Below are positions 16,140 to 41,902 of a DNA stretch of 48,527 nucleotides, piece after piece. The stretch is from Acidobacteriota bacterium (GTDB lineage: Bacteria; Acidobacteriota; Aminicenantia; Aminicenantales; Saccharicenantaceae). The stretch's first letter is position 1. Each line of letters starts with the position of its first letter. The stretch is taken from the NCBI GenBank assembly GCA_014894455.1, contig JADBLN010000030.1:13547-62073 (forward strand). The letters run 5' to 3'. The notes below the pieces were generated by a model. The model saw only the letters and a list, made by a program, of their open reading frames with translations. It did no database searches and was not told the DNA's origin. Both the position numbers and the translations under genes were made by a program.

Positions 16140-16484
16140 ATGGCTAAAGCGCTGCTCGTCCTGTTCCTGATCGTCGTGGCCGCATTCTTCATCTACCGGC
16201 AAACCAGCCAGGCGCCTTCGGAAGAAGAGGAGATGGTCGCTTCCTTTCAGGACCGCTACGCCGTCGTCGTCCAAAAGTTCACGAGCGCCGCGGGCCGGGC
16301 CGGCGCGCTGGGACTCGACACGCTCGCCGACTCCGATTCCGCCGCCGACCAAGTCCTCAAGCTCCGGGACGAGCTGGTCCAGCTTCGAAAGACGCTGACC
16401 GAAGAGAAGGCCATCGGCAAGGCCGCCGCGCTCGCGGAAAAGATCGAGTATTTCTGCAAGAAAAACGACATCATCCGGCCTTGA
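16140..16484 (+). CDS. Small membrane-anchored hypothetical protein
   Basis: MAKALLVLFLIVVAAFFIYRQTSQAPSEEEEMVASFQDRYAVVVQKF...; stop overlaps the TTG start of the next gene. Confidence 0.65.
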   Translation: MAKALLVLFLIVVAAFFIYRQTSQAPSEEEEMVASFQDRYAVVVQKFTSAAGRAGALGLDTLADSDSAADQVLKLRDELVQLRKTLTEEKAIGKAAALAEKIEYFCKKNDIIRP

Positions 16485-18292
16485 CAGCCCAACTTCTCGG
16501 AAAACCCATCCGCACCGGGCGACTGGTCCGGCGGCTGGAGAAAGCGCGCATCGAGGCCGGCGTCGAGAGAGCGGCGCACGGATACATCCTCAAGGGCACG
16601 GTTTCTGGCCGCCCCGGACGCCTGGAGATCTTCCGGACACCCGCCCCGCCGGCGTTCCTCCTCAACAACTGGCAGTCCTGGGGCCCGATGGAGCGCATCA
16701 CCCCTTCGACCAGGTTCCCCGAGCTCGAGGCCATCGTCCGTGATAACAGCCCTTATCTTTTCTCGCCGCTGCCGGACGTCCTTTTGCGCGGCCCGGTGAG
16801 CGACTATTTCGCCGCATGGGAGGGCACGGTCGCCGGGTTCCTGACCTCCCGCATCGGCCACCCGTTCTTCACCGTCGAGGGCGGAGACCTCGTCGGCTGG
16901 GTCGATTATTTCGACGCGGAATTCGACGCACCGGTCGCGCTCGAGCCCCTGGCCGTCCTTTCGGGCGGCGCCGTCGAGGATCTTCTCGACGTCTACGGCG
17001 CACTCGTCAAGCGGGCCAATCGCGTCCGCATCAACGCCTGGAACCCCGTCGGCTGGTGCAGCTGGTATCACTATTTCGGGAAGCTCGTCTGGGACGACGT
17101 CCTCGAGAACCTCGACATCGCAGCCCGCAACCGGAAGTCCTTCCCCTTCGACGTTTTCCAGGTCGACGACGGCTACGAAACCGACATCGGCGACTGGATG
17201 TCGCCCAAGTCGGGCTATCCGGACCTCCCCGGTCTGGCCCGGGCCATCGCCCGGAAGGGATTTAAAGCCGGAATCTGGACGGCGCCGTTCAGCGCGGCCG
17301 CGACTTCCGAGTTGTTCGCCAAGCACCCGGACTGGATGATCCAGGAGGACGGCCGGCCCAAGTTCTGCTACCGGGGCTGGGGGAAACCGATCTACGCCCT
17401 CGATACGACCCATCCGGAAGCGAAGACCTGGCTTCATGAGATGGTCACGGGCCTCAGAAAAGCCGGATTCTCATACCTCAAGATCGACTTTCTCTTCGCC
17501 GCGGCCATGCCCGGGACGAGGCGCAAGCGCGTCACCCCGGTCCAGGCCTACCGGGAGGGCTTGGGCGTCGTCCGCCGGGCGGCGGGAAGGGATTTCATCC
17601 TCGCCTGCGGCGCGCCCCTTCTGCCCTCGACCGGGCTCGTGGACGGCATGCGCGTCGGCGAGGACACCGCCCCCTACTGGAAAACCAAGCCTTCGGGCTT
17701 CCAGGGCCCGAACGCCTACTTCGCCCTCAAGAACGCCCTGCTCCGCCAGTTCATGCACCGGGCTTTCTGGCTCAACGACCCGGACTGCCTGCTCCTGCGC
17801 GGCCGGGAAACCGAGCTTACCCGGAACGAGCGGGAGCTTTACGCCCTCGCCGCCGGCGCGCTCGACAATATGGTCATCGCGAGCGACAAGCTCTCTCTCC
17901 TCGGCCCTGAGGAGAAAAATCTTTTTCTGCGCGCTCTCGCCCTCCGGAGCGGCAGGAGCCGGGTTTCAGGGCTGCTCGGGGAGGACGCTTATGTCATTCA
18001 CTCCAGGGGCGGTCCATCGGGTGACGTACGCCTCGGCGTCAATTTATCCGATGAGGAGGCCGTCGTCGGGGGGATTTCCGTGGCCCCCCGGTCCGGGGCG
18101 CTCCTCGAACCGGAATTGGCGGGAGGAGTCAAGGGACGAGCCTTCGCAGCGGACGTGGACCCCCCGTCCTGCCGGCTTCGCCACCGGCTTTGCAGTGCCG
18201 GTGCTGGCAACCGGCAGCACTGCCACCGGCTTGGCAGTGCCGGTGCTGGAGACCGGCAAGGGCGGTGGCAAGGCCGGGGCCCCGGCCGCTGA
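16481..18292 (+). CDS. GH36-like alpha-galactosidase with C-terminus replaced by a repeat element
   Basis: LLNNWQSWGPM; NPVGWCSWYHYFGKLVWDDV; FQVDDGYETDIGDW; KAGIWTAPFSA; YLKIDFLFAAAMPG. The last ~50 codons lie in repeat sequence (18129-18291). Confidence 0.87.
   Translation: MTAQLLGKPIRTGRLVRRLEKARIEAGVERAAHGYILKGTVSGRPGRLEIFRTPAPPAFLLNNWQSWGPMERITPSTRFPELEAIVRDNSPYLFSPLPDVLLRGPVSDYFAAWEGTVAGFLTSRIGHPFFTVEGGDLVGWVDYFDAEFDAPVALEPLAVLSGGAVEDLLDVYGALVKRANRVRINAWNPVGWCSWYHYFGKLVWDDVLENLDIAARNRKSFPFDVFQVDDGYETDIGDWMSPKSGYPDLPGLARAIARKGFKAGIWTAPFSAAATSELFAKHPDWMIQEDGRPKFCYRGWGKPIYALDTTHPEAKTWLHEMVTGLRKAGFSYLKIDFLFAAAMPGTRRKRVTPVQAYREGLGVVRRAAGRDFILACGAPLLPSTGLVDGMRVGEDTAPYWKTKPSGFQGPNAYFALKNALLRQFMHRAFWLNDPDCLLLRGRETELTRNERELYALAAGALDNMVIASDKLSLLGPEEKNLFLRALALRSGRSRVSGLLGEDAYVIHSRGGPSGDVRLGVNLSDEEAVVGGISVAPRSGALLEPELAGGVKGRAFAADVDPPSCRLRHRLCSAGAGNRQHCHRLGSAGAGDRQGRWQGRGPGR
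18129..18291. repeat. Composite GC-rich repeat element (module A flanks, 99-bp module B inside)
   Basis: tcaagggacgagccttcgc.gcgga...gccccggccgctg boundaries shared with 29583-29653; internal 18181-18279 identical to 41629-41727. Confidence 0.88.
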
Positions 18293-18320
18293 GGAAGAAT
18301 AATGGCGGGAAAGGCGGGAA

Positions 18321-19657: not shown

Positions 19658-19826
19658 GAGGGGGTGAAGCCTACTTTCTGCGCGGCTTTTTCGGAGGGGG
19701 TCAAACCTACCTTTTACACCCTATTTGACCCGAAAGGTGTAAAAGGTAGGTTTGACCCCATCTTAGGTTTTCCTCCTCGCCGTTGTCCCCTTGCCGAGGT
19801 GAGCAGAAAGTAAGTTTGACCCCCTC
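19658..19826. repeat. Nested double inverted repeat, REP-like family 2 (GAGGGGGTCAAACCTACCTTTT)
   Basis: Outer arms 19658-19681 / 19803-19826 (21/24 complementary) enclose inner arms 19697-19720 / 19736-19759 (24/24). Confidence 0.93.
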
Positions 19827-29582: not shown

Positions 29583-29653
29583 CAGCGGCCGGGGCGGGCG
29601 GGCCCCCGGGCTTGCCCGGGGATCCGCTTCCGCCGCGAAGGCTCGTCCCTTGA
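29583..29653. repeat. Short copy of composite GC-rich element (module A only)
   Basis: Reverse complement starts tcaagggacgagccttcgcggcgga and ends gccccggccgctg, as in 18129-18291. Confidence 0.8.
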
Positions 29654-29716
29654 TGCCTTGTTTCGGAGGGCTCATCGCGAGTATGCTTCGTGGGCACGGA
29701 CGAAAGAGGTGAAGGC

Positions 29717-36472: not shown

Positions 36473-36527
36473 CAAGAGGGGGTCAAACCTACCTTTTGCA
36501 GCAAAAGGTAGGTTTGACCCCCTCTTG
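36473..36527. repeat. Perfect 27-bp-arm inverted repeat with 1-nt loop, REP-like family 2
   Basis: CAAGAGGGGGTCAAACCTACCTTTTGC-A-GCAAAAGGTAGGTTTGACCCCCTCTTG, between convergent genes. Confidence 0.95.
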
Positions 36528-41493: not shown

Positions 41494-41628
41494 ATGAAGC
41501 CATCTTATTATAATACGATTTCGCCGGACTTTCGTTCACGCCGGCCACTGGCTCCCGGGAGTCCTCCTTTTCTCTAACCGGTTATCAACCCATTCGACTC
41601 CCCGGCCTGAAGCCCGGGGCCGGGCTTC

Positions 41629-41727
41629 CCACCGGCTTTGCAGTGCCGGTGCTGGCAACCGGCAGCACTGCCACCGGCTTGGCAGTGCCGGTGCTGGAGA
41701 CCGGCAAGGGCGGTGGCAAGGCCGGGG
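41629..41727. repeat. 99-bp module B repeat, no mismatch to 18181-18279
   Basis: Direct comparison found no mismatch; internal near-duplicate halves CACCGGCTTtGCAGTGCCGGTGCTGG / CACCGGCTTgGCAGTGCCGGTGCTGG with hairpin potential. Confidence 0.95.
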
Positions 41728-41751
41728 TATATACTCAGGGTTAATACTGAG

Positions 41752-41790
41752 CACCACCCACCCCGTTTTAAAAAATCGGTGTGGGTGGTG
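41752..41790. repeat. Stem-loop (CACCACCCACCCCG ... CGGTGTGGGTGGTG)
   Basis: Arms 41752-41765 and 41777-41790 are complementary at 13/14 positions around an A/T-rich loop. Confidence 0.75.
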
Positions 41791-41902
41791 TCGAACGTAT
41801 CAAGGATACAGGAAACCCGGATATTTGTAAAAACCAGGCATAACAAATTTCGATTTGGCACCGTATTTACGTTATGATAGGCCGATAAGTGGAGGCTTGC
41901 CC

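Follow-up and report, generated by a model that had tools for sequence, protein, structure and literature searches.

The C-terminal tail of a GH36-type (alpha-galactosidase-like) gene of this uncultured Aminicenantes bacterium very probably arose when a non-autonomous palindromic element of modular build recently inserted into the gene. In this element a member of a dispersed repeat family (family A) carries a second repeat (B) nested within it. The gene lies in the window, i.e. the whole 48,527-nucleotide stretch that was analysed; its ORF (16481-18292) encodes 603 amino acids with Pfam matches to GalA_N (2.5e-40) and Melibiase (1.1e-13), and its translation ends ...LLEPELAGG followed by VKGRAFAADVDPPSCRLRHRLCSAGAGNRQHCHRLGSAGAGDRQGRWQGRGPGR and a stop. 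The first-pass annotation had the ORF running into a GC-rich repeat after LLEPELAGG, and the translation agrees; the repeat is dispersed genome-wide, the tail DNA having 58 matches in the 2.95-Mb genome. The insert, at 18128-18290, is a composite of A with nested B and not one palindrome. The features concerned are as follows, with the evidence for each in brackets; G000 is this genome, G004 its sister genome and G010 another genome of the class.

16481..18127, plus strand: native portion of the GH36 gene, up to ...LLEPELAGG (Pfam GalA_N and Melibiase; 94% identity to the G004 ortholog as far as 18127)
18128..18290, plus strand: composite insert of 163 nt, B nested in A (empty site in G004; exact excision gives LLEPELAGGEEE and a stop; A boundaries the same at other empty sites)
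18128..18164, plus strand: A head, which reads VKGRAFAADVDP in the usual family frame (26 head copies in the genome; same frame within other genes)
18174..18279, plus strand: nested B repeat, two units spaced 42 nt (99% identity to the A-less copy at 41623-41727; direct repeat)
18270..18290, plus strand: A tail with the GGGGCCCCGGCCGCT end, overlapping the end of B (3' end common to A copies)
18290..18292, plus strand: new stop TGA, spanning the 3' junction (sequence and translation)
18291..18302, plus strand: displaced native end GAG GAA GAA TAA, its stop at 18300-18302 now out of frame (translation of the joined flanks; colinear with G004)
29584..29654, minus strand: the other A copy in the window, 71 nt long and intergenic (G000:C58:43176-43200; site empty in G010, with about 200 nt at it in G004)
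41623..41727, plus strand: B repeat without A, adjoining family C sequence (repeat matches; motif scan)

The insertion in GH36 is carried by one genome only. The G004 ortholog (94% amino acid identity) is insert-free and ends LLEPELGDGTGE before its stop, followed by a 3' flank colinear with that of the window. Removal of the 163 bp at 18128-18290 from the window joins the flanks to read LLEPELAGGEEE up to the TAA at 18300-18302, matching the G004 end; excision thus restores a G004-like terminus and puts the insertion point four codons short of the native stop of GH36. About 54 amino acids encoded by the insert have taken the place of the natural end. The tail had also been described as unlike GH36 C-termini, a claim that survived the refutation test proposed along with it: none of 17 orthologs gathered from the genus and order has a homologous tail, all ending at or shortly past the ...PRSGA-like strand. 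The stop codon had been attributed to the element's own terminal motif, which the empty-site alignment bears out for the T of the TGA (18290-18292) and not for the GA, which comes from the flank. The first 12 codons of the tail give the usual peptide of family A, VKGRAFAADVDP; the nested B makes the insert 163 nt long (3n+1), so that the remainder is read outside the family frame and ends at the junction TGA. AFAADVDPPSCR is an example of a peptide within this conceptual tail, and the DNA fold z-score is -2.6.

Family A, the outer part of the composite, starts GTCAAGGGACGAGCC and ends GCCGC(C/T). Its 25-bp head occurs 18 times in the genome with three mismatches or fewer and its 19-bp head (GTCAAGGGACGAGCCTTCG) 26 times with at most one, versus none for the reversed control in either search. 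The main forms in other Aminicenantes measure 63 nt, the commonest short form, and 102 nt, which includes one more hairpin module of 39 nt; both fold into strong successive hairpins. The second A site of the window (29584-29654) holds 71 nt here, about 200 nt in G004 and nothing in G010, so the interiors of A are remodelled while the site stays fixed. Locus L099, with the same flanks, contains A together with the 39-nt module and B. At another site (L083 in G004, L070 in G000), A is complete in G004 and only its head is present in G000, an internal deletion, and the few A-tail bases that remain at the L014 site in G004 look like a deletion remnant. Tandem A heads at 27-nt spacing (GTCAAGG...GGAAGTCAAGG...) were seen in L095 (position 2431), L135 (3466) and L157 (7631), i.e. 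A inside A, and the tandem in L095 remains in frame with an Era GTPase. As for B, Tandem Repeats Finder gave nothing above threshold, although the repeat search shows the 42-nt-spaced units. Positions 41589-41801 belong to a third family of dispersed palindromes, C (CCCATTCGACTCCCCGG...CAGGGTTAATACTGAGC...GGTGTCGAACGTATC), with the B repeat within it; C has copies at several more loci of the genome.

That the composite was built in two steps is a real possibility, although one to which we give somewhat less than even weight: a 63-nt-type A would have inserted first, in frame and with the native stop kept (VKGRAF...GAPAA-EEE, then stop), and B would have arrived later, causing the frameshift and the new stop. 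The prevalence of the 63-nt form and the different interiors at one fixed site among G000, G004 and G010 fit such a history, but A+B composites also exist at other loci (L079, L099), so A and B could have come as a whole.

Within the class, the A head (at most one mismatch) was found in 10 of 143 genomes and the reversed control in none. The copies number 163 in G054, 79 in G049, 30 in G090, 26 in this genome, 19 in G004 and 11 in G010, with 1-4 in each of four further genomes. A wider scan, using one genome per species and exact matches, gave more than 100 matches as a lower bound; among the matches listed, all were labelled Candidatus Aminicenantes except for one "bacterium" and one Spirochaetes. 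The left flank of the copy in the Spirochaetes-labelled MAG (L130, position 857) is the same as that of an Aminicenantes contig (L128), and L130 is thus probably a misplaced (misbinned) contig. We found no published account of family A in the open-access literature, which leaves most subscription journals outside coverage.

Exact A-empty alleles, in which the element starts and stops at identical bases, are available for RibBA and for loci L030, L068 and L026, and no target base is visibly duplicated or lost at any of these four; the empty site of L065 was left out as it differs by small gaps. The bases 3' of A match GT(C/G)GA exactly or nearly, in filled and empty alleles alike and in nearly all copies counted; their presence in both kinds of allele looks like a target preference of A. 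Of the five motif bases, the GH36 target (GAGGA) has only four. We also weighed a target duplication of GTC and discarded it, since the L030 and L068 empty sites show none. Family A thus inserts directly 5' of a GT(C/G)GA-like pentamer, and the target bases are neither visibly duplicated nor lost. We infer that it is mobilised in trans by an enzyme that remains unidentified, possibly a single-strand HUH/Y1-type transposase, an idea suggested by the hairpin-rich ends and by a target that is one-sided and not duplicated.

A more specific proposal, that A is a REP moved by a resident REP-associated tyrosine transposase (RAYT), seems to us improbable and was rejected. A is indeed short, palindromic and without transposase coding, the genome does have a Y1_Tnp gene, and a one-sided target without duplication is usual in single-strand Y1 transposition (ISDra2; PMC2806898). 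But this gene, the only Y1 gene of the genome (locus L089, G000:C69), has no A motif at its locus, the palindromes on either side of it being unrelated GGTTTGACCCC ones, and the numbers of Y1 genes do not track A, ranging from 1 to 3 in genomes with 26-163 A copies and reaching 4 in genomes without A. The Y1 matches of G000 and G049 are all weak and RAYT-like. Palindromes like those flanking the Y1 gene (GGGGGTCAAACC/GGTTTGACCCCC) also occur in the window at 19696-19824 and 36478-36522, and are likely the REPs of the Y1 gene itself. A canonical IS200 TnpA was likewise discarded as the partner of A since its end hairpins differ, and no partner IS with A-matching ends was found, the IS200-like TnpA of G054 having another end hairpin. 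Loci L216, L218 and L219 carry canonical IS200-like tnpA genes with a TGCCCCGCGGCTTGCCGCGGGG hairpin on both sides; the ATTGAC on the right side of L218 and L219 resembles the TTGAC end of A on the other strand, which may be chance.

Family A is also found inside genes. The element is mostly open in one of its sense frames (VKGRAFAAEVDPRAKPGAPAA) and in one antisense frame, internal stops being rarest in sense frame 0 (13/113 copies) and one antisense frame (19/113), against 24-107 in the other frames. Sense insertions read VKGRAF(GSPLARGLYPRAST)AAEVDPRAKPGAPAA, with variants (VKGRAF...GAPAA), and lie in frame in LigA, NagA, an ABC ATPase, a DPP-IV-like peptidase, GH28, RibBA and others, while antisense insertions, reading AAGAPGFARGSTSA..., were found, likewise in frame, in UvrD-like, 3-keto-disaccharide hydrolase and glycosyltransferase-9 (GT9) genes. 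Several Pfam domain matches span A; LigA, compared with the solved ligase 2owo, has 61 extra residues between positions 159 and 164 of the latter, and in NagA the extra residues split the match to 2vhl into two parts. Both flanks were coding in one shared frame for nine copies in sense frame 0, six in the open antisense frame and four in other frames. These calls rest on posteriors above 0.95 from a seven-class model trained on 229 ORFs and are still rough; a codon-usage score from 23 window ORFs was discarded as it could not separate a gene from its mirror frame. Since the canonical lengths of A (63 and 102 nt) are multiples of three and one sense and one antisense frame are mostly free of stops, it can land in genes as an in-frame peptide. 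The simplest reading of the in-frame copies is that they survive because out-of-frame copies are purged, without any need for coding design. Genes whose 3' ends run into A as in GH36, which the first-pass annotation had suggested looking for, do exist: a Peptidase_C26 gene (L029) and an MsrB (MsrB/SelR) gene (L122).

As regards the protein, the tail comes after the last native strand, of which residue 542 is the end, and has pLDDT values of 24-31 in the structure prediction, i.e. it is predicted to be disordered; the model is modest overall (mean pLDDT 65.6, 17 sequences). The tail may thus be a tolerated disordered extension and not an adapted part, an inference made with its translation unproven. 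We think it very unlikely that it is instead a functional extension under selection, such as a domain or a secretion/attachment tail: although the ORF is open across the 163 nt and the rest of the gene is intact, no ortholog has such a tail, which is mostly outside the family frame and predicted to be disordered. A repeat misjoined into the GH36 gene during assembly can practically be dismissed, for although this is a MAG assembly and contigs of copy-rich genomes frequently terminate in an A repeat, G004 is colinear with both unique flanks, which join to the base once the element is removed, and other A copies have equally exact empty sites. The earlier reading of the GH36 tail as a repeat insertion was therefore largely right, leaving aside its translation and usefulness.

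Rickettsia and Wolbachia supply the best-known coding palindromes. Rickettsia palindromic elements (RPEs) are short hairpin-forming repeats, either intergenic or fused in frame in conserved protein genes where they encode a conserved peptide (PMC2229807; PMC10969869), and an RPE-bearing guanylate kinase of Rickettsia is translated and active (PMC2229807). Family A resembles RPEs and the Wolbachia coding palindromes in being a hairpin repeat that is both intergenic and in frame in genes, with a conserved peptide frame. RPEs measure 105-146 bp, however, and have 12-bp terminal inverted repeats (PMC2229807), neither of which is met by A, with its 63- and 102-nt forms and its ends (GTCAAGGG and GCCGCC) that are not inverted repeats. 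A is furthermore modular, built on a 63-nt core, GC-rich, from another phylum and adjacent to a GT(C/G)GA-like site, and it is also used in frame in antisense; its sequence would likewise differ from that of RPEs. Family A thus behaves like RPEs yet lacks their size and terminal-repeat features.

REPs of the GTAG and CGTC types are, like A, short palindromes, some of them in genes; GTAG REPs often give stop codons to adjacent ORFs, and CGTC REPs lack a dedicated transposase (PMC3733652). REPs measure only 20-40 bp, whereas A is longer, multi-hairpin, often in frame in genes and unlinked to a RAYT gene here; GACG (CGTC on the other strand) occurs near the A head, not as a clear REP tag. IS200/IS605-type elements such as ISDra2 have a one-sided short target and subterminal hairpins (PMC2806898); A shares the one-sided target motif without visible duplication, and differs in having no transposase gene and no partner IS found with matching ends. 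MITEs (Correia, ERIC, RUP, QMITE) are, like A, non-autonomous repeats of small size, and fusion with ORFs may occur (PMC10969869), but they have terminal inverted repeats and target duplication not seen for A. The suggestion that the element is a route to new C-termini thus has precedents in RPEs and REPs, and is supported here at the sequence level only.

We propose, tentatively and with well under even confidence, that family A represents a new protein-inserting palindrome family outside the Rickettsiales, made of hairpin modules in multiples of three bases that are readable in frame on either strand, inserted precisely before GT(C/G)GA (Val-Glu/Asp) by an unidentified single-strand transposase, and shaped to pass through proteins, many intragenic landings leaving an in-frame peptide. 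The high copy number of A in a distant phylum, together with its exact empty alleles and its target motif, makes the entry of selfish DNA into proteins testable, as well as the gain and loss of modules at a fixed site and the origin of new C-termini.
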